Below, in pieces: positions 9,315 through 52,132 of a stretch of 53,538 nucleotides of DNA. The position numbers were made by a program, and so were the translations under genes. Positions within the stretch are counted from its first letter, which is position 1. Every line of letters starts with the position of its first letter. The stretch lies in contig JAIKWN010000234.1 in assembly GCA_024684665.1 (NCBI GenBank), positions 1-53,538 on the forward strand. Direction: 5' to 3'. Below the pieces are notes generated by a model that worked only from the letters and a program-made list of their open reading frames with translations, made no database searches and was not told the origin of the DNA. This DNA comes from Clostridiales bacterium. Its GTDB lineage: Bacteria; Bacillota_A; Clostridia; Christensenellales; Aristaeellaceae.

Positions 9315-10466
9315 ATGCTGTCAAGACCCATGCTCGACCGCACCGTTCTACCCGGTATCAGCTGGTATGCCGTTCTAATCGTCGCCGCGCTGATCATCGG
9401 TTATTTATTGTCCTCCCGGGAAGCGGAAAGACAATCCCTTCCCAGAGATCTGATCCTGGATTTCATGATCCTCGCCATCCCCCTCGGCATCCTCTTCGCC
9501 AGGCTGTATTATGTCTTCTTTCAGTTTGAGGATTACAGCGAGGATCTTCTGTCCATCCTGTATATTCACGAGGGAGGTCTCGCCATCTATGGCGGCATTC
9601 TGGGAGGTCTTCTTGCCGCCAGAATCACCGCGCGCCGCCGGGGTGTTTCTACCCTGCGCCTGCTGGATCTGATCGCGCCTTCCCTCGCACTCGGCCAGGC
9701 AATCGGTCGCTGGGGCAACTACATCAATATGGAGGCCTACGGCCTTCGCGTATCCGAAGAAGCGCTGAAGTTTTTTCCCTTTGCCGTCGAAATTCCGGTT
9801 GGCCAAGTCTGGTACTGGCAGATGGCAACTTTTTTCTATGAGTTCTGCGCTGACCTTCTGATCTTCTTCATCCTGCTCCTTTGCCGCAGGAGAATCAAAA
9901 AAGAAGGGGACGTCTTCCTCTGGTACCTGCTCCTCTATTCTTCCGCGCGCGTCGTCATCGAAGGGCTGAGGGACGACAGTCTGACCTTTCTCAGCGACTT
10001 CGTCCGCATCTCCCAGGTAATATCCGGCGTCCTTGCAATCCTAATCGTCATCTGTTTCTTCCTCAGAATCCGGGACAGGATCAGTTTCGTCACGGTTCTC
10101 CCCGTCCTGATCACCTCTGCAGCATTCGCGCTTGCGATGCTAGGCGAATTTGAGCGAAACGCGTACAGTTTTCTTTTCCGGTTTTCCCAGATCATGGCCT
10201 TCGTTCTGCTGATCCTACAGATCCTGTTTGCAGCCATCTTTACGATAGACGCCGGCTCCTTCAAGTGGAACGCCTGCCTTCCCTGCTTTCTTTGCGCGCT
10301 GCTCGATCTTGGCATCGTGCTTTTTGGAATCGGCCGCAGCAATCTGGACAATACGTATTTTGTCAGCTGGCGTCAGATCGCCGCCATGCTGCAGATTATC
10401 GAGGCAGCGTATCTCCTATACAGCCCGCTGGGCGCGCGGCACCCGGGAAAAGAGGCGGACAGATGA
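9315..10466 (+). CDS. lgt: Prolipoprotein diacylglyceryl transferase with C-terminal membrane extension
   Basis: A 383-residue membrane protein. The Lgt signature GQAIGRWGNYINMEAYG (127-143) contains the essential Arg, and VIEGLRDDSL (214-223) matches the second conserved Arg region. The HGG motif of E. coli Lgt reads IYGG here (91-94), a Tyr-for-His change I believe other clostridial Lgts share. Lgt transfers diacylglycerol from phosphatidylglycerol to the lipobox cysteine of prolipoproteins. The normal length is about 260-290 residues; here about 130 extra residues after about 250 carry some four more hydrophobic segments (about 257-277, 292-312, 320-340, 354-372). GAGGAGG lies just upstream of ATG 9315. 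The stop overlaps recX (ATGA). Confidence 0.9.
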   Translation: MLSRPMLDRTVLPGISWYAVLIVAALIIGYLLSSREAERQSLPRDLILDFMILAIPLGILFARLYYVFFQFEDYSEDLLSILYIHEGGLAIYGGILGGLLAARITARRRGVSTLRLLDLIAPSLALGQAIGRWGNYINMEAYGLRVSEEALKFFPFAVEIPVGQVWYWQMATFFYEFCADLLIFFILLLCRRRIKKEGDVFLWYLLLYSSARVVIEGLRDDSLTFLSDFVRISQVISGVLAILIVICFFLRIRDRISFVTVLPVLITSAAFALAMLGEFERNAYSFLFRFSQIMAFVLLILQILFAAIFTIDAGSFKWNACLPCFLCALLDLGIVLFGIGRSNLDNTYFVSWRQIAAMLQIIEAAYLLYSPLGARHPGKEADR

Positions 10467-11122
10467 TTGAACGGGATCACCCCGCTTCTAAGGAGGATCA
10501 GAAAACCATCATCCGGATTTCGCAATCGCGCGGTACGATCCGCCTGGTTTTCGATGATGAAAGCGTCTTATCCCTGCCTGTCTCAGTATTCTCACTTTTG
10601 AAGTTGAAGGAGGGTAGTGTTTTTCTGCCTTCCTCGCTTGCGGGCCTGCAGAAACATGCAGTCGCGCTTTGTTTTTCAAAATGCTGCCGCTCGCTGGAAG
10701 CCCGTTTCCGAACGACAGCGGAGCTTTCCAAATGGCTGAGGGAATCCGCCTGGCCGGATGCGGTCATCCAGGAAACCATAAAACTGCTTCTCGACGCAGG
10801 TTACCTGGACGATGCACGGTATTGTGAGGCATATGTCGCGCGAAGGCAGGCACAGGGTTATGGTGGCAGGCGGATACGTGCCGAACTGCTGCAAAAAGGG
10901 ATCCCCAGAGAGCTTCTGGATGAGACCAGCACCGCTTCAGAAGACGATGGATTCCCCGATGACGGTTTGCAGAAGGCTCTCCGGAAAGCGGTCAGTGGGA
11001 AGAATCTTTCTAATCCGCGCGATTTTGAAAAAGCGATGGCTTCCCTCGTCCGCAGAGGCTATTCGTACCGCGAGGCACGAAATGCCGTCGAGCGCGTCCG
11101 TTCAGAAACAGAAGATGATTAA
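10463..11122 (+). CDS. recX: Recombination regulator RecX
   Basis: A 219-residue protein with the RecX helical repeats: RTTAELSKWLRESAWP, then the hallmark LLDAGYLDDARYCEAYVARR (about 113-132), YGGRRIRAELLQKGI, and a final RRGYSYREARNAVE. RecX binds RecA and restrains filament growth. ATG 10463 overlaps the lgt stop by 4 nt (ATGA), which gives the normal RecX N-terminus; a longer frame runs back into lgt but is not needed. recA is not in the window. A strong terminator follows immediately. Confidence 0.92.
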   Translation: MIERDHPASKEDQKTIIRISQSRGTIRLVFDDESVLSLPVSVFSLLKLKEGSVFLPSSLAGLQKHAVALCFSKCCRSLEARFRTTAELSKWLRESAWPDAVIQETIKLLLDAGYLDDARYCEAYVARRQAQGYGGRRIRAELLQKGIPRELLDETSTASEDDGFPDDGLQKALRKAVSGKNLSNPRDFEKAMASLVRRGYSYREARNAVERVRSETEDD

Positions 11123-11160
11123 GGGGTCACCAGCAAAGAGGCAGGTGACCCCGTTTTTTT
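11123..11160 (+). terminator. Rho-independent terminator after recX
   Basis: A perfect 9-bp stem, GGGGTCACC (11123-11131) with GGTGACCCC (11144-11152), a 12-nt loop, and seven T at 11154-11160. It lies between convergent recX and mutS2, ends the + transcript, and has no good T-run in the opposite direction. Confidence 0.92.
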
Positions 11161-11175
11161 AGATTCTCGGTCTTC

Positions 11176-13551
11176 TTACCGCAGCGTTACAACGGTAACG
11201 CCTGTCTCCCCCTCGCCATAGCGTCCGGCCCGATATGAGGATACCGATGGATGCCTCCGCAGGCATTCCGCAATCCCCTGCCGCAGGACGCCGGTTCCAT
11301 TACCATGTATGATGCTGACTTCTTTCAGAGAGGAAAGGACCGCATCGTCGATGAATTTTTCCACTTCCGGAATCGCCTCGTTCAGTGCAAGCCCCCGGAG
11401 ATCCAGTTCCCTGCGCACATCCCGGTTCATGATATCCACGCGTGTATTCGCGCTTTCCCGGCGAATGAACCGTTCTTTTTGCTTTTTCTCTTCTTTCTGC
11501 GCCTTCGTCGGTTTTCTAAGGTCCGAGAGTGGTGTCCTCAGCTTCATCCGTCCTGCCATCAGCTGCACGTTACCTTTGGCATCCGGTAGAGCCGTCACTG
11601 TAGCATCGATGTCCATGGAAGCAACATGTACGAGATCGCCGACCTTCACCTCTGAAAGCGGCTCGCCACCGCCCTGCGGTCCGTCTTGTTCTGCCAGTTC
11701 ATCTGCCGCCTGCTCAGCCTTGCGGCGGATCGCCTGTATCTCATGTTCCTGAGCTCCGCCCGCTTTCTTAAGCGCCCGAAGCTGTTCGATCAGATTCTCC
11801 TGCTCCCGCCTTGCATTTTCGACGATACGCTTTGCTTCTGCTTTCGCCTTTTCAAGGGAGCGCTGCCGCTGCTCTTCAAGCTTCGTACGCTCCCGTTCTG
11901 CCTGTCTGCGGATCTCCAGCATTTCAGTATGCGCCTGCTCTGCCAGTTCTCGCTCCTTAGCGGCAACCTGACGGTGGTATTCTGCATTGGCAAGAACGTC
12001 CTCAAAGCGAATCTGTTCCTTGGACAGCAGTTCCTTAGCGGATTCAATCAGGTCATCCGAAAGGCCGAGCTTCTTGGAAATCTCAAACGCATTTGATTTT
12101 CCCGGAATTCCAACGAGGAGACGATAGGTTGGGCGAAGCGTAGCCACGTCAAACTCCACGGAGGCATTCTCTACACCTGGGGTCGTCATGGCAAAAGCCT
12201 TCAGTTCGCTGTAATGGGTGGTCGCAGCTGTTCGCGTCCCCATCTGCAGAAGATACCGGAGGATCGCCTGGGCCAGAGCTGCGCCCTCGGTCGGATCTGT
12301 GCCCGCACCCAGCTCGTCGAACAGGACAAGCGATTTTTCCGTTACCTGGGAGAGAATCTCGACGATGTTCTTCATATGTCCGGAGAATGTCGAGAGGGAC
12401 TGCTCGATCGACTGCTCGTCGCCGATGTCCGCAAAGACGTCTTCAAAAACAGACGTCTCACTGCCCTCTTCCGCGGGAATCTGCAGGCCAGCCTGGGCCA
12501 TCAGACAGAATAGACCAATCGTTTTCAGCGTCACCGTTTTCCCGCCCGTATTTGGGCCGGTGATGACAAGGGTCGTAAAGGTATCCCCAAGGCGAACGTC
12601 CAACGGAACAACACGGTCCCGGTCAATGAGGGGATGCCGTCCGCGTTGGATGGAAATGGATCCCTTTTCATTCACCCGCGGTGTCACCGCTTCCATCTGG
12701 ATACCCAGGGACGCCTTTGCAAAAATGAAATCCAGTTGGGACAGAATATCCTGATCCCTTTGAATATCATCCGTATATGGCGCTATCTCAGCCGACAGCT
12801 TACGCAGGATGCGGTCGATCTCCGCCTTCTCCGCTGCCATAAGCTGCTTTCTCTCATTTCCGATTTCAACAACGGACATGGGCTCGATGAATAGCGTTGC
12901 TCCGCTCGTCGACTGATCATGCACGATACCCGGAACCATTGCGCGGTATTCCTGACGCACTGGCAGAACATACCGATCCTGCCGCATCGTGATGATCGCA
13001 TCCTGCAGGTATTTCGAATACGCTGCGCTGTGAATCATGCTATTCAGTCGGTCACGGACGCGGTCCGTACAGGCGCGCATCTTCCTGCGGATCGAAAACA
13101 GCTCCGAGCTGGCCCGGTCCGCGATCTCGTCCTCGCTCACGATGACGTCCGCAATGTCCTGTCTGACATCGCGAAGATCTGCCAGCTGCTCCCCCAGCGT
13201 GCGGAGCATGGGCGTATCCTCTCGATCGGTCAGAAGCGCATCTCTCGCAGCCTTCGCGGCCCGCAGGACCGCAGCGACGTCCATCAGCATCCGGGGCGAA
13301 AGCGCACCCCCGATGGAAGAAAGGTGCAGCGCTTCCGTCACGTCCGAAAAGGCTTGCACCGGCGTGCCCCCGCTCACTCCGGATATCTCGCGCGCCTCCG
13401 CAGTCTCCTGCTGCGCCGCTTCGATCTCCGGCAGGGTCGTATAAGGAACAAGCGCGCGGGACGCCGCCTGGCCGCCTTCCGTGACGCATCGTTCGGCGAG
13501 CATTTCTTTGATTTTCTGGAATTCAAGGACGTGCATCGAACGTTGGTTCAT
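11176..13551 (-). CDS. mutS2: Endonuclease MutS2 (MutS-like ATPase with Smr domain)
   Basis: A 791-residue protein. It has a MutS-type clamp/lever region, then Walker A GPNTGGKTV (332-340), Walker B and signature LVLFDELGAGTDPTEGAAL, a long charged coiled coil (about 515-620), the KOW-like region VGDLVHV, and a C-terminal Smr domain starting LDLRGLALNEA with HGNGTGVLRQG. In Firmicutes MutS2 limits recombination or rescues collided ribosomes rather than performing mismatch repair. GGGAGA precedes ATG 13551. It follows the U32 gene by 38 nt and appears to be the last gene of the long minus-strand operon. Confidence 0.95.
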   Translation of the reverse strand: MNQRSMHVLEFQKIKEMLAERCVTEGGQAASRALVPYTTLPEIEAAQQETAEAREISGVSGGTPVQAFSDVTEALHLSSIGGALSPRMLMDVAAVLRAAKAARDALLTDREDTPMLRTLGEQLADLRDVRQDIADVIVSEDEIADRASSELFSIRRKMRACTDRVRDRLNSMIHSAAYSKYLQDAIITMRQDRYVLPVRQEYRAMVPGIVHDQSTSGATLFIEPMSVVEIGNERKQLMAAEKAEIDRILRKLSAEIAPYTDDIQRDQDILSQLDFIFAKASLGIQMEAVTPRVNEKGSISIQRGRHPLIDRDRVVPLDVRLGDTFTTLVITGPNTGGKTVTLKTIGLFCLMAQAGLQIPAEEGSETSVFEDVFADIGDEQSIEQSLSTFSGHMKNIVEILSQVTEKSLVLFDELGAGTDPTEGAALAQAILRYLLQMGTRTAATTHYSELKAFAMTTPGVENASVEFDVATLRPTYRLLVGIPGKSNAFEISKKLGLSDDLIESAKELLSKEQIRFEDVLANAEYHRQVAAKERELAEQAHTEMLEIRRQAERERTKLEEQRQRSLEKAKAEAKRIVENARREQENLIEQLRALKKAGGAQEHEIQAIRRKAEQAADELAEQDGPQGGGEPLSEVKVGDLVHVASMDIDATVTALPDAKGNVQLMAGRMKLRTPLSDLRKPTKAQKEEKKQKERFIRRESANTRVDIMNRDVRRELDLRGLALNEAIPEVEKFIDDAVLSSLKEVSIIHGNGTGVLRQGIAECLRRHPSVSSYRAGRYGEGETGVTVVTLR

Positions 13552-44246: not shown

Positions 44247-45218
44247 TTACAGGATGTCTACCAGAAGATTTCCGCTCTCGTCCGTTACTAGGCGCAGAAG
44301 TCCTTCTTTTTCCAGCGCCCGGAGCACATCAGAGAAGCGGCGCTGGCCGATCTGCCGCTCGGTGAAATCCGGAAACTCCGCCTGCACGGCGGATTTCAGA
44401 ATGGACGGATTAACTCGGTCGAATCCGTCTTTCTTGTATTCCCGGAGGATGCGTCCGAAGATGCGCAGGTAGTTGTCCTTTGTCATCTGCTCCCCAACTT
44501 GCCCGTGCGGCTGGTTCAGCTGCACGACCAGGTTATATCCCTCACTGACCGTCGTAAAGCCGATATATTGCGAAGAAAGCCGGGTCAGCAGTTTCCCGAA
44601 TGTGCTGCATCCGACGCTCTTTTCCGAGAAGTTAGGGCGCAGCCGTAGCAGAACGCTCTTGACTTCTGAAGCCAACATTTCCCCGCCATCGCTTTCCTGC
44701 AGAATGGTCACGATTAGATCGTTCACATCCCGAAGCGTCAGCGCTTCTCCGGTTACCGCGCTCTGCGGACGGTCCTTGCCCGCCGTGACACTCTCCAGAA
44801 ACTGGAATTCGGAACAGGCATTCATGAAGGTGTTCGATGCCACCTCGCTTCGCGAAATGCCCAGTACGAACTTGCCCATACTCTTGAGTTTTCCCACGAG
44901 GGGCACGTAGTCACTATCTCCGCTCACGATACAGAAACTGTCGATGAGCGGGTTTGTGTAGGCAACGTCCAGCGCGTCAATGACCAGCTGGATGTCCATG
45001 CTGTTCTTTTGGCTGCGGCCGTAGCGCAGGGAAGGCACCACCGCAAAGGTATTCGATAGCAGTGTCTCTTTCAGATCGGAATGAGCGTCCGTATATCCAT
45101 ACACCTTTCCGATCAGGATATCCCCGCGAATCTTCACCCGCTCGATCACGTCCATCAGCATGCTCTTCTTGCCGCCACAGTTCTCGAGGTCGGCAAAGAG
45201 CGCAAAATGACTTGCCAT
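44247..45218 (-). CDS. NYN-domain nuclease-like protein with two LOTUS/OST-HTH domains
   Basis: A 323-residue protein. Residues about 3-145 are a NYN (LabA/DUF88) PIN-like domain with acidic residues D10 (FADLEN), D75 and D81 (SMDIQLVID), and D101/D103 (SGDSDYVPL), consistent with metal-dependent RNA cleavage. Two LOTUS-like winged helices follow: about 160-235 (LRLRPNFSEKSVGCSTFGKLL) and about 247-320 (AEFPDFTERQIGQRRFSDVL). LOTUS domains bind RNA or helicases, so an RNA-processing role is likely, but the target is unknown. It lies 84 nt after the permease-kinase gene and 42 nt before preA. AGGAG precedes ATG 45218. Confidence 0.87.
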   Translation of the reverse strand: MASHFALFADLENCGGKKSMLMDVIERVKIRGDILIGKVYGYTDAHSDLKETLLSNTFAVVPSLRYGRSQKNSMDIQLVIDALDVAYTNPLIDSFCIVSGDSDYVPLVGKLKSMGKFVLGISRSEVASNTFMNACSEFQFLESVTAGKDRPQSAVTGEALTLRDVNDLIVTILQESDGGEMLASEVKSVLLRLRPNFSEKSVGCSTFGKLLTRLSSQYIGFTTVSEGYNLVVQLNQPHGQVGEQMTKDNYLRIFGRILREYKKDGFDRVNPSILKSAVQAEFPDFTERQIGQRRFSDVLRALEKEGLLRLVTDESGNLLVDIL

Positions 45219-45302: not shown

Positions 45303-48206
45303 TCACAATTCTCTTTCTTCTGTCTCTTTCTCCTTCGCGCGGTGTTCAAGGACCTGCGTTAGTGTGCCCAGCATCTTCTCCACGTCCAGTGGCTTTCCAA
45401 TGTGAGCGTCCATTCCCGCGTTCTTCGCTGCCTGCACGTCCTCCTGAAAGACGTTTGCCGTCATGGCAACAATGGGGATGCTCGAAATCCCGGGATCCGG
45501 CAGTGCCCGTATAGCCTTCGTTGCCTCATAGCCGTTCATGACCGGCATCTGAATGTCCATGAGGATCGCGTCGTAGAAGCCAGGCTTCGTCTCCCGCATG
45601 ATCTCCACCGCTGCGCGCCCGTCATCCGCTGTATCCACCAGGAAGCCCGCCTGTGTGAGGATCATATTGGCGATCTCCATATTGATCGCGTTGTCTTCCA
45701 CGAGGAGCAGCCGCATCTTCGTAAAGTCCAGTGTCGGCTTTCCTTCTTCCTCCCGTGCAGGGGCCGCAGGCGCCTCCGCCACAGGCAGGGACAGGGTTAC
45801 CATGAATTCCGTCCCTTTCCCCTGTTCCGACTGCACCTGGATTTTCCCGCCCATGCGCTCCACGATGCTTTTCGCAATGGAAAGCCCGAGTCCCGTACCC
45901 TGGATGCCGCTGACGGTCGCTGTCCGCTCCCGCTCGAAGGGTGTGAAAACGTTCTGCACGAATTCCGTGCTCATGCCGATGCCCGTATCGCGCACGATCA
46001 GCTCGTAGTATCCCTCGTCCTTTCCGCGCCCGGTCTGCCGGAGGAGGACGGACACCGTTCCGCCCTTTTCCGTAAACTTCATGGCGTTGCTGATAAGGTT
46101 TAGAAGCACCCGGTTCAGCCGGTTCCGGTCTGCGAGTACATACGGGTCAGAAAGCGCTTCGCATTCCGTCCGGAAGGTCACGCCCTTTTCCTCCATCTGT
46201 GTACGGAAAAGATCGGAAACCTCCGAAACGGCGTCCGGCAGGCTCATAGGCGCTGGGATGAGATCCATCTTTCCGTTCTCGATGCGGCTCATGTCAAGCA
46301 CATCGTTAATGATACCCAGCAGCTGCTCCCCGGAGGCCTCAATCTTTTCCAGGTACTCATCCTTCTTCTCCGGGGGCACGTCCGGCTGCCTTGCCAGATG
46401 GGTGAAGCCGACAATGGCGTTCATGGGGGTACGGATGTCGTGAGACATATTGAAGAGGAAACGGCTCTTGGCGCGGCTGCCCTCCTCAGCTCGCATTTTC
46501 TCCCTCTCCAGTGCCTCGTGCTTTCTCTGCAGCAGGATGTGAATCCCCAGGGAAACCGTGAAGAGCGTGATCACCACAAGCATGCTGCGCACGTTCGCCT
46601 TGCGCAGCTCCGTCATCTCCAGTTGCAGAAAGGCCTCGTCAGCCTGCGTCAGCTCTGCCGCCTCCCCGCCAAAGTGCCCCCGCACTGCCTCAATGGAGCG
46701 CATCGTGGAATCCATCGTCCTCTGGCTCATCCAAACGAGGGAGGTGAAGAGTACAAGCAGCAGCAGCGCAATCCACACGACGGTGGATTTGCCAAATTTC
46801 TTTGCGTAATCCCTGCGCAGCAGCGATATGAAGAAGAGGAAACCGAAGACCGCCCAAACTGTAAAGAGGAAGTAGGTTTCCGCCTGCAAGGCATCGGAAG
46901 ACAACAGGTTGAACAGCAGCAGGTACAGAGCAAAGCCCACCATGAGAATGAGCCCGGCGAGCCCGGCCGCCATTTCCCGCCGTTCCCCGCGGCTTCTTGC
47001 CATCTTGAAGGCTGAAGCGGAGACAAAGCCGAAGATAATCGTAGCGCCGATTGTGGTTACGTCGACAATCCAGCCGATTGCTGCCCGCCCCAGGAAGGGA
47101 ATGGGCAGGGAGCAGAGCGCCACGAACCAGATAGCCTGGTCTGGAATGTGGTGCGCATTCAGCTTCGCGAATCGGCTCGAAGCCACCTCATCCTTTCCCA
47201 TCGCGTAGAGCAGACGGGACAGTGCTGTCAGGTTACCGATCAGGCTCGTCAGGATGAGTGCGAAGAGCGCAACAACAAGCAGGACGATCCCAGCCCTCCC
47301 CATGTAACGCCCCGCTGCGTAAAACGCCGGGAGGGATTCGTCCCCTTCCAGAGCACCCAATTGTGAAATGTAATCCGCCCAGCTTTCAAACCGCTCCGGC
47401 CGTGCAGACACAGACAGGAGGATTAGGGTAGTATAGAGTAGCAAGGCTACCACCACCGCCGCGCAGAGGATGCCGAAGACCTTTTTACGGTTAAAGCGGA
47501 ATTCCTCCGCAGAATGGGAGATACTTTCAAAACCGATGAACGCCCAGGGCGAGATGCAGACGATCCGGAGGAACTGCGCAAATGGCGGAGAGTCCGGGGC
47601 AAAAGCCGGCAAAAAGAGCGGCGTGGAAGCTCCTCCCCGAGCCATGGAAACGCAGAACACGAAAAGAATACACGCTGTGAAAATTCCACACAGGATCACC
47701 ATGATCCGGGCAGTGCGCTTTCTGTAGTGGGAGCAGAACAGCGCGGAGAGCAGAATCGCCGCAACGGACAGCAGTGCCTCGCCGAAATACATTTCGTAGC
47801 CGAACGCCCGGTAATGGAGGCCGAAGTGAAACATCTCGCCCAGAAAGTTCTCCGCGAAGAGGGGCAGCGCCGTCGCATTGGCCCAAAACATGGCAACGTA
47901 GGTGAGTGCCAGGAACCAAGAGCTGATGAAGCCATGATCGTAGCCGTAGGTTTCCTTGGCGTAGGCGTAAACGCCGCCCGCGTCCGGGATGCTGTTCATC
48001 ATGTAGTGATAACTTCTGCTGATGATCAACATGATGAGCGCGCCCGCGACGAGACCCAGAAGGCTCCCTGCGGGACCAGCTTGGGCGAGATAGGTATTGC
48101 TGGTCACTACGAGGCTTCCCCAGCCTATGCTGGTCCCCAAAGCCAGGGAAAACGCCCCCGCCCCTGACAGATATGGGGTCAGTTTCCTTCCGTCCTCGTG
48201 CAGCAT
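45303..48206 (-). CDS. APC-family amino-acid permease fused to a hybrid histidine kinase (sensor transporter)
   Basis: A 967-residue single frame. Residues about 10-465 are an APC-superfamily transporter (GTSIGWGSLVVTSNTYLAQAG at the unwound TM1, then SIPDAGGVYAYAKETYG and GFESISHSAEEF in TM6). Two more helices (about 475-493 and 541-560) flank a 47-residue outside loop. A short coiled coil leads to HisKA (SHDIRTPMNAIVG, H589), HATPase (N-box NLISNAMKF, DTGIGM at 740-745, GTGLGLSIAKS), and a C-terminal receiver (VEDN at 836, phospho-acceptor D884 in LMDIQMP, K938). It probably senses substrate binding or flux and relays phosphate, like CbrA-type transporter kinases. There is no output domain or adjacent response regulator. 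GGGGGAG precedes ATG 48206. Confidence 0.93.
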   Translation of the reverse strand: MLHEDGRKLTPYLSGAGAFSLALGTSIGWGSLVVTSNTYLAQAGPAGSLLGLVAGALIMLIISRSYHYMMNSIPDAGGVYAYAKETYGYDHGFISSWFLALTYVAMFWANATALPLFAENFLGEMFHFGLHYRAFGYEMYFGEALLSVAAILLSALFCSHYRKRTARIMVILCGIFTACILFVFCVSMARGGASTPLFLPAFAPDSPPFAQFLRIVCISPWAFIGFESISHSAEEFRFNRKKVFGILCAAVVVALLLYTTLILLSVSARPERFESWADYISQLGALEGDESLPAFYAAGRYMGRAGIVLLVVALFALILTSLIGNLTALSRLLYAMGKDEVASSRFAKLNAHHIPDQAIWFVALCSLPIPFLGRAAIGWIVDVTTIGATIIFGFVSASAFKMARSRGERREMAAGLAGLILMVGFALYLLLFNLLSSDALQAETYFLFTVWAVFGFLFFISLLRRDYAKKFGKSTVVWIALLLLVLFTSLVWMSQRTMDSTMRSIEAVRGHFGGEAAELTQADEAFLQLEMTELRKANVRSMLVVITLFTVSLGIHILLQRKHEALEREKMRAEEGSRAKSRFLFNMSHDIRTPMNAIVGFTHLARQPDVPPEKKDEYLEKIEASGEQLLGIINDVLDMSRIENGKMDLIPAPMSLPDAVSEVSDLFRTQMEEKGVTFRTECEALSDPYVLADRNRLNRVLLNLISNAMKFTEKGGTVSVLLRQTGRGKDEGYYELIVRDTGIGMSTEFVQNVFTPFERERTATVSGIQGTGLGLSIAKSIVERMGGKIQVQSEQGKGTEFMVTLSLPVAEAPAAPAREEEGKPTLDFTKMRLLLVEDNAINMEIANMILTQAGFLVDTADDGRAAVEIMRETKPGFYDAILMDIQMPVMNGYEATKAIRALPDPGISSIPIVAMTANVFQEDVQAAKNAGMDAHIGKPLDVEKMLGTLTQVLEHRAKEKETEEREL

Positions 48207-48257
48207 TCTTCTCCCCCTTTTCCGAATCTTTGCTGTCCGACTATCAGATTACTATTC

Positions 48258-48286
48258 ATTATAAGCATTCTTCTGCCAGATGGCAA
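48258..48286 (-). promoter_or_regulatory. Promoter of the permease-kinase gene
   Basis: On the minus strand, TTGCCA (48281-48286), a 17-nt spacer and a perfect TATAAT (48258-48263). Transcription would start near 48251, about 45 nt before the ATG. Confidence 0.85.
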
Positions 48287-50682: not shown

Positions 50683-51444
50683 TCAGCTTCCCAAGTTGCT
50701 CTCCAGATACGCCTTCTCCGCTGCCCGCCATTCCTCCGTAAATTCTTCCAGGCAGAGGAAACTATCCCGCATGTACTGCGCCACCTGAACGCCGACGTAG
50801 CGCAGATGCCAGGGTTCGTAGATAATCCCCGTCAGTTCTTCCTTTTCTTTCTGATACCGGATGATGAAGCCGAAATCCCAGCAGTGCTCCGCCAGCCACT
50901 GCCCCTCCTTCGTCTTTGCGAAAGCCGGAGTGAAGCGCTTGCCGATGCCCGCCTTGTTGATGACGTCGATGCCCAGACCCGTCTGGTGGTCCGAAGAACC
51001 CGGATAGGCCACCACGCCGTCGTCCTTCCCGCCGTTGCTCTTCAGGCGGTTGTAATACATGGTCTTCTGCGTCCGATAGCTGCGATAACCGGAATGAGCG
51101 TAGAGGGTGATCTTGTCCTCCTTCGCCGCGTCGAAGAGCTCCGAGAGTGCCTCCGCCGCCGCTTCACGCATCTCGATCGGTGTGGAGCTGATCTTTCGGC
51201 ACTTCAGCTTCACAAGATCCGACGGGATATAGTCTTCTTCCAGCAGGCTGTCCCGGTTCGCGAGGACGATGTAGGGATTATCGCGAAGGAGCTCATACGG
51301 AAGCGGATAGTCCCAAGTTGCGGGTTCTTCGACGGTTGCCGCCTCCGGAACCACCCCGAGCACCGAGAGATCCAGTGTTTCCGCCAGGACTGCCGGCAGG
51401 AAGAAAACGAGCGTGGCAAATAAGAGGAGCAGCCGCTTACTCAT
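50683..51444 (-). CDS. D-alanyl-D-alanine carboxypeptidase, VanY family (second copy)
   Basis: A 253-residue secreted zinc peptidase. The signal peptide ends near AVLA/ET. VanY motifs are SGYRSYRTQ (118-126), SDHQTGLGID with ligands H153 and D160, and YEPWHLRYVG with the catalytic Glu 210 and ligand H213. It trims the terminal D-Ala of peptidoglycan stems. ATG 51442-51444 overlaps the stop of the upstream paralogue by 8 nt with GGAGG in place; 20 further in-frame codons lie within that gene. An N-terminal domain of about 80 residues is unlike that of its paralogue. Confidence 0.9.
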   Translation of the reverse strand: MSKRLLLLFATLVFFLPAVLAETLDLSVLGVVPEAATVEEPATWDYPLPYELLRDNPYIVLANRDSLLEEDYIPSDLVKLKCRKISSTPIEMREAAAEALSELFDAAKEDKITLYAHSGYRSYRTQKTMYYNRLKSNGGKDDGVVAYPGSSDHQTGLGIDVINKAGIGKRFTPAFAKTKEGQWLAEHCWDFGFIIRYQKEKEELTGIIYEPWHLRYVGVQVAQYMRDSFLCLEEFTEEWRAAEKAYLESNLGS

Positions 51445-52132
51445 TCCCGTGCGCCTCCATCCATTCAATCCGCTCGCCCCGGAGCGTCTGCATATAGGTT
51501 TCATAAGGGATATCTCCCATCTCGTGTATGCGCCGGGATGCTTCTTTCCCGACGTAGCGAACGTGCCAGGGTTCGTATGCGTAGCCCGTGACCTTCGTCA
51601 TACCCCGCGCGTAGCGCAGGATGAAGCCGTACTCCCAGCAGTGTTCCGCTACCCAGATCCCCTCCGGGGATTCGCCAATCTCCTTGCGAAGCCCCTGTCC
51701 CAGCATGGATTCGCCCTCGAAATCCATCGCCAGCCCGGTCTGATGCTCCGAATAGCCGGCCTTGGCGGAAGTCTGATTTGCGACCTTTTCTCCTCTCTCA
51801 CGGCTCTTCCGGGAAAAGATGGCTTTCTGCGTCGCATAGCTGCGGTAGCCACTGACAGAGTAGAGATTGATTCCTTCTTCCGCCGCCGCCGCAAACATCT
51901 CCTCGAGCGCTGCGGCTGCTTCCGGGCGCATGTAGGTGTTTTTCGCCACGTCCCCGTTCATGGGATGTACTTCCGGCCGCGTGAGCGCAAGAGGAACGGT
52001 CGGCGCCCTGTACTGCTTGTTGACGAGCAGCAGCGTCCCTACAGGATCCTGATGGGGCATCATATAGCTCCAGGATCCGAAACCCAGGGAAATCCCCAGA
52101 AGAAGCGCCACTGCCGTACCAGATCCGATCAA
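51437..52132 (-). CDS. D-alanyl-D-alanine carboxypeptidase, VanY family (first copy)
   Basis: A 231-residue protein with an N-terminal hydrophobic helix (about 5-24, likely a signal anchor) and the VanY catalytic core: SGYRSYATQ (94-102), [12 protein letters not shown] with H130 and D137, and [10 protein letters not shown] with E187 and H190. The start overlaps the hflX stop (ATGA), and its end overlaps the next paralogue by 8 nt, so the three genes are translationally coupled. Both copies keep all metal and catalytic residues. Confidence 0.9.

Follow-up and report, generated by a model that had tools for sequence, protein, structure and literature searches.

The gene at positions 45,303..48,206 (minus strand) of contig JAIKWN010000234.1, from the Clostridiales bacterium assembly GCA_024684665.1, raises the question of what an amino-acid permease does when it is joined to a histidine kinase in a single protein. 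The whole stretch of DNA analysed, hereafter the window, is 53,538 nucleotides long, and the initial annotation had described the gene as an APC-type transporter fused to an extra helix pair and a hybrid kinase. In our analysis, it appears fairly probable that the APC core, together with a hairpin formed by transmembrane helices 13 and 14 (TM13/14), constitutes a family of sensory domains that serves as an exchangeable amino-acid receptor in anaerobes (many rumen and gut metagenome-assembled genomes, MAGs, were among the fetched loci) for hybrid kinases, diguanylate cyclases (GGDEF), and HD-GYP phosphodiesterases, that the kinase version passes its signal to an Hpt and on to a receiver-EAL protein, and that the versions converge on cyclic di-GMP (c-di-GMP).

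The frame runs from an ATG at 48,206 to 45,303 without internal stops and encodes 967 amino acids (aa), assigned by reading of the frame, Pfam, and a predicted model to a permease core, a two-helix hairpin, and the HisKA, HATPase, and receiver domains. The 12-helix core (residues 1–471; 46,794..48,206, minus strand, as are all features of this gene) was recognised by Pfam, the model, and structure comparison; AA_permease_2 covered residues 16–432 (8e−30), and the 967-aa protein scored 104.5 bits with PF13520 (cut-off 27) and 75.3 bits with PF00324 (cut-off 24.6). Behind the hairpin lie the HisKA dimerisation/phosphoacceptor domain (residues 579–645, 46,272..46,472, 1e−19), HATPase_c (residues 693–807, 45,786..46,130, 3e−29), and the receiver domain Response_reg (residues 834–947, 45,366..45,707, 5e−23), and these matches, as well as that of AA_permease_2, exceed the curated Pfam cut-offs. 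The phosphoacceptor histidine H589 (codon 46,440..46,442) and the receiver phosphoacceptor aspartate D884 (codon 45,555..45,557) are invariant in a 53-row alignment, together with N703, N707, D740, G742, G744, G770, G772, G774, D838, and K938. The protein therefore has the make-up of a hybrid histidine kinase (HisKA with its phosphoacceptor histidine, N and G boxes, receiver with its phosphoacceptor aspartate), and both the fusion of permease and kinase in one intact frame and the intact catalytic residues were confirmed as initially annotated.

All 120 full-length relatives listed (P0002–P0121; the best of 7,731 matches) combined a permease family with HisKA, HATPase_c, and Response_reg; among the matches listed, the best was identical, the next eleven were 68–58% identical, and the remainder 51–45%. 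Three of them (P0016, P0026, P0058; about 1,115 aa) were read as bearing a second receiver. By name, many fetched permease-kinase loci are rumen or ruminant-gut MAGs of Bacillota, and others belong to Treponema sp. JC4 (L011), one Spirochaetales MAG, and one Aeromonadales MAG. Although the relatives come mostly from metagenome assemblies, it is extremely improbable that an assembly or frame error fused separate permease and kinase genes, as the architecture is common to all 120 full-length homologues listed at 45–100% identity, has members in Treponema sp. JC4 and, at L235, on a contig that makes up 3.55 Mb of a 3.6-Mb genome, and is joined in the model by one continuous helix. An error between residues ~465 and 580, which had been named beforehand as the finding that would count against the fusion, is excluded by the 120 relatives and by the presence of the architecture in an isolate genome.

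The permease part is not confined to kinases. When residues 1–471 were searched, 117 of the 120 matches listed were permease-GGDEF proteins (52–59% identity), one was a permease-HD-GYP protein (P0227), and two had no output domain; outside the APC-kinases, the closest sequence relatives of the core among the matches listed are thus permease-GGDEF fusions, and GG[DE]EF is kept in 117/117 of these. The HD-GYP fusion of L125 was confirmed by Pfam. In the alignment, the shared part extends through the TM13/14 hairpin, a region also detected by profile in the GGDEF and HD-GYP fusions, and the outputs diverge immediately after it. The fetched loci gave 86 kinase, 16 GGDEF, 3 HD-GYP, and 31 stand-alone rows after removal of identical permease segments and of matches < 380 residues, with ordinary distant APC permeases included among the stand-alones. 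Stand-alone relatives exist and are more distant than the fused ones; a short-query search for stand-alones returned 154 matches, and several of the listed ones whose C-terminal ends were read end within GGDEF. Complete frames of stand-alones were obtained from whole-genome searches. A permease-LuxR fusion (P0258) was a single sequence and a possible chimera, and was not used. The annotated fusion is real, but the initial reading was too narrow: the protein is no isolated oddity and represents one of several output variants of a permease-type module, which occurs with GGDEF and HD-GYP as well. Two permease-GGDEF frames are longer at the front (L254:5342–8551, 1,069 aa, and L255:6432–9119, 895 aa), with permease matches starting at residues 349 and 170, respectively.

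A 144-row FastTree of the permease part (thinned from 181 rows) needed 7 changes of output label, with the stand-alones all falling to one side of a branch (79); a 57-row permease tree likewise needed 7 output changes. In the latter, the 12-row kinase clade of the window is nested in a 36-row set (99) that also contains 21 GGDEF and 3 HD-GYP rows, where the 12 kinase rows (89) stand apart from 19 GGDEF and two HD-GYP rows (81). The approximately unbiased (AU) test rejected a single kinase clade (p 3.6e−53) and a single GGDEF clade (p 1.7e−10, a value that depends largely on one outlying row, L182). The permease part looks like a sensory module, and, as the trees reject a single clade for either output, its outputs were swapped. 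A window-clade permease-kinase (P0004) and a permease-GGDEF protein (P0177) both lie on 40,664-base contigs, perhaps the same contig.

Gene neighbourhoods point to the partners of the kinase version. At L012, L013, L123, L220, L235, L236, L238, and L262 the permease-kinase shares its locus with genes for a free Hpt and for a receiver-GGDEF-EAL protein, whereas at L010 and L016/L230 the nearby partner is an EAL gene only, and at L229 a distance of 5.6 kb separates the receiver-EAL gene from that of the kinase. L022 carries a split system with Hpt between separate permease and kinase-receiver genes (consecutive at L022:7920–11409), and at L001 the gene 24 bases upstream of the permease-kinase gene (L001:4693–7863) encodes a large kinase-receiver protein that matches Hpt close to its end. 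Permease-GGDEF genes keep similar company (L122: receiver-EAL, Hpt, and GGDEF; L126 and L221: receiver-EAL; L225: GGDEF-EAL). Pfam recognised 8/8 tested Hpt/EAL partners of fused loci (both at L012, L238, and L262; Hpt at L123 and L220) and missed the Hpt of L022, which was assigned from a local profile and its HxxKG motif. This motif is kept in 13/13 Hpts, while the receiver-EAL proteins, some of which are neighbours of permease-GGDEF genes or come from free Hpt loci, have ExLxRW and DDFGxG in 16/16 cases and lack GG[DE]EF in 16/16. The distant Hpt proposed in the initial annotation stays plausible for the window, but in several relatives the Hpt adjoins the gene, accompanied by a phosphodiesterase-type regulator.

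Linkage was counted in 17 permease-kinase genes (16 genomes) from genome searches in the class and family of G002, the families of G114 and G005, and the class of G010, leaving out loci picked for linkage (L010, L012, L013, L016, L022), G001-family genomes, and the cut G402 pieces; in this sample, a contig end truncates the G675 gene, and one G923 gene is 0.6 kb away from such an end. Hpt occurred within 6 kb of 6/17 genes where 0.44 were expected (P 2.4e−6, assuming random placement and ignoring kinship), and of 7/22 with G001, G568, and G605 added (0.65 expected, P 1.9e−6). Both Hpt genes of G114 adjoin module genes, and the only one of G798 adjoins the kinase fusion. A first estimate (11/30, P 1e−10) was discarded because some genomes had been chosen after their linkage was known, and it was also marred by an Hpt 7.5 kb off (G342), the split system of L022, and the cut G402 gene.

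At L013, L231, L232, L235, and L238 a two-receiver hybrid kinase is clustered with the Hpt and receiver-EAL genes, and several kinases may therefore feed one relay. Another arrangement, tandem pairs of about 820-aa permease-kinases without receiver, occupies L172–L181 (e.g., L176:7347–9800 and 9810–12329). When four kinase motif patterns were applied to 21 receiver-less permease-kinase rows, 13 rows fit no pattern at all and 20 failed in one or more. The patterns are strict (all four matched in 42/64 permease-kinase-receiver rows). The tandem genes look like permease-pseudokinase pairs. A CheB-methylesterase-like gene adjoins the pairs at five loci (L176:6108–7223, also L177, L178, L180, and L181); the receiver aspartate seems to be missing from its N-terminal part, and a chemotaxis link is possible.

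With moderate confidence, we read the protein as a membrane sensor kinase whose APC core was recruited as a receptor; the hairpin would pass the conformation of this core on to a phosphorelay, which in turn probably controls c-di-GMP. The TM1/TM6 pocket would bind an amino acid or a related small molecule, and the switch between outward- and inward-facing states would move TM12–TM14 and twist the continuous helix that links TM14 to the dimerisation and histidine phosphotransfer (DHp) part of the dimer. H589 would then be autophosphorylated and the phosphate passed to D884 and on to an Hpt protein. In relatives with adjoining partner genes the likely final acceptor would be the receiver-(degenerate GGDEF)-EAL protein, so that the output would most likely be altered c-di-GMP breakdown, while a module with GGDEF or HD-GYP attached directly would act on c-di-GMP with no relay in between. 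The fusion, the intact catalytic motifs, the sharing of the module, the output swapping, and the Hpt/EAL linkage in part of the relatives are established by the analysis; the ligand, the conformational coupling, the direction of control, and the use of the same relay in the window's organism are what we infer.

Several observations weigh against this reading. For eleven of the 17 genes in the count, no Hpt lies inside 6 kb; L010 has its EAL gene, yet its genome gave zero Hpt matches with the local profile, and the only Hpt of the L016 genome is on a different contig. Among 26 permease-kinase-receiver loci of G001's family (L183–L188, L192–L211), local profiles found no neighbouring Hpt and one EAL, although the Hpt profile was built from two Clostridia proteins and misses others (e.g., the Hpt-bearing kinase adjoining L001's gene). 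With local profiles, no other kinase, receiver, GGDEF, EAL, Hpt, or HD-GYP domain was found in the 53.5-kb window, in agreement with the annotated absence of a response regulator, and the 12 rows of the window clade (P0002–P0013) have no visible gene context. Finally, the kinase half of the window's protein is 59–60% identical to APC-kinases outside its own clade vs. 55% to the best non-APC kinase in a limited sample; repeated capture of kinases and a kinase ancestor that later acquired GGDEF outputs are therefore equally possible.

An alternative is that the same sensor has another output: a general Hpt would hand the phosphate to a transcriptional regulator, and c-di-GMP would be involved only in lineages with linked operons. 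By local profiles, 25/26 loci of G001's family and several of the Treponema family have no EAL or Hpt neighbour, and the window has no partner gene. Such an output is possible but rather unlikely, given that the small Hpt partners beside fused permease-kinases are accompanied by receiver-EAL in loci of both Bacillota and the Treponema JC4 family, and that this input module elsewhere has GGDEF or HD-GYP as its output.

Whether the receptor also transports was considered on an AlphaFold2 model of the 967-aa protein (85-row alignment, predicted local distance difference test (pLDDT) 88.3, predicted template modelling score (pTM) 0.67) and on the conservation of its pocket. The core of the model matches APC structures, with a predicted 12-helix LeuT-type fold in which TM1 and TM6 are broken, and the alignment to APC transporter structures stops at residue 474, ahead of the hairpin. 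Then follow a helix at 476–513 and a single helix at 521–606 that continues into the kinase; TM13, a short outside helical hairpin, and TM14 together span residues 476–560 (46,527..46,781; model and alignment). The extra helix pair of the initial annotation is present in the model, but its supposed 47-residue outside loop is mostly helix there. No Pfam match was found for residues 455–578 at E 1e−3.

Pocket residues of the transporter GkApcT (PMC5803215) were mapped by profile onto a thinned set of 120 sensor rows and onto 14 close stand-alones, the latter including the separate permease of the L022 operon. The TM1 helix-break motif G28-W29-G30 (48,117..48,125) is invariant in the alignment, and in the TM6 motif W221-A-F-I-G225-F-E227 (47,526..47,546), located by profile mapping, W221 corresponds to the gate residue GkApcT Phe231/AdiC Trp202 and E227 to Asp237. 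All 120 sensors retain the glycines of TM1 and TM6, in accordance with the unwinding motifs first annotated, and 119/120 retain W221; at the Thr43 position, Trp occurs in 118/120 sensors and 13/14 stand-alones. The two sets part at the Asp237 position (Glu in 114/120 sensors vs. Asp in 12/14 stand-alones) and the Met321 position (Asn in 79/120 sensors vs. Phe in 13/14). From these sequences the site still looks suited to bind an amino acid backbone, while its inner gate looks changed, and the protein may be a receptor that transports poorly or not at all. The equivalents of Lys191/Glu115, tried as a marker of lost transport, are absent from sensors and stand-alones alike and do not discriminate, and the TM3 register is unsure. 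Neither did the neighbours of stand-alone permeases indicate a ligand, as no consistent substrate emerged across L118 (adenylosuccinate synthetase and lyase), L119 (alanine dehydrogenase), L265 (class-V aminotransferase and nucleotidyl transferase), and L189, L190, L233, and L234, which have no common theme.

A full transceptor, i.e., a permease part that moves an amino acid across the membrane while signalling, as CbrA does with histidine, would be consistent with the 12/12 core helices in the model, the retained TM1/TM6 breaks, W221 gate, and acidic residue at the Asp237 position, and with the histidine uptake of CbrA, itself a LeuT-fold kinase fusion (PMC13022988, PMC7918813). This alternative nevertheless seems doubtful in view of the sensor-specific Glu and Asn described above, and of the loss of transport in GkApcT when Asp237 is changed to Ala (PMC5803215), a replacement other than the Glu of the sensors.

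Among known systems, the protein most resembles CbrA, CrbS (MxtR), and RpuS in having a LeuT-fold transporter core N-terminal to a histidine kinase, some of them being hybrids with a receiver, and by analogy it may work like CbrA-type transceptor kinases; CbrA both transports and senses histidine (PMC13022988, PMC7918813), and RpuS is of the SLC5-STAC sensor kinase type (PMC9100948). The CbrA type, however, has an SLC5/SSS core of 13 helices, a soluble STAC domain, and PAS in the described members, in contrast to the APC-type core and TM13/TM14 hairpin found here. Pfam gave no SSF (SLC5/SSS core) match to the 967-aa protein at E 1e−3, and AA_permease families matched instead; in place of the soluble STAC four-helix bundle, the membrane hairpin 476–560 runs into the kinase, and the stretch from residue 560 to HisKA at 579 is too short for STAC or PAS. 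Another transporter core used as a sensor occurs in the Ks-Amt5-type kinases. There, an ammonium-transporter domain, an unrelated membrane domain, is fused to the histidine kinase (PMC5764959), and no ammonium transporter match was found by Pfam in the 967-aa protein at E 1e−3. The protein is thus an APC-core hybrid kinase, and neither an SLC5-STAC kinase nor an Amt-kinase. AdiC, GkApcT/CAT, and LAT are 14–20% identical to the core in structural alignments but are transporters without an output domain. Hybrid kinases of the TorS, LuxQ, BarA, and ArcB types share the HisKA-HATPase-receiver order and motifs (the best NCBIfam match was TorS with 320 bits, far under its cut-off of 676) and differ in the input domain, as well as in that the linked relatives here have a separate small Hpt with receiver-EAL as the likely end acceptor. 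No description of an APC-kinase or APC-GGDEF fusion was found among the listed titles and abstract openings of open-licence papers; many characterised proteins of this architecture, named initially as a finding that would refute the observation, were not encountered there, although it is common in metagenomes. Of the new results, the swapping of outputs on the module and its linkage to genes for Hpt and receiver-EAL proteins are the strongest.

The spread of the module was assessed with residues 1–559 (E ≤ 1e−40, centre genomes counted in). It was found in 69/151 genomes of G001's family, 7/70 of G114's family, 9/197 of G002's family (4 of these with stand-alone-length frames only), 12/145 of G005's family, which is that of the Treponema JC4 genome (4 with stand-alone-length frames only), and 1/274 of G010's class (G010 itself). 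Of the 391 genomes of G002's class, 10 gave a match below 1e−50 (3 of these genomes with frames of 453–460 aa only) and 50 gave one at E ≤ 1e−3, mostly weak matches to other permeases.

Upstream of the gene, a strong Shine-Dalgarno-like AAAGGGGGAG (48,211..48,220, minus strand) lies ahead of the ATG. The promoter of its own proposed in the initial annotation does have an 11/12 sigma-70-like match (TTGCCA-17 nt-TATAAT, 48,258..48,286, minus strand), but this is a consensus match only, and a scan at the same threshold found 2 sites in 4.7 kb vs. 1.8 expected in shuffles. Elsewhere in the window, Pfam identified NYN and OST-HTH/LOTUS domains in the gene downstream of the permease-kinase (44,247–45,218, minus strand) and two adjoining VanY-type D-alanyl-D-alanine carboxypeptidase-like genes (50,683–51,504 and 51,437–52,132, minus strand).

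Transceptors have been called rare (PMC13022988, PMC11109136), few transporter-kinase fusions have been studied, and a review of c-di-GMP inputs uses "permease" zero times and "transporter" once in its main text (PMC8846402). Here, a transporter fold serves a large family as a modular receptor with three kinds of output, and the natural variants of this one module allow asking how a transport cycle becomes a signal. For gut and rumen anaerobes, the module offers a plausible amino-acid input to c-di-GMP.
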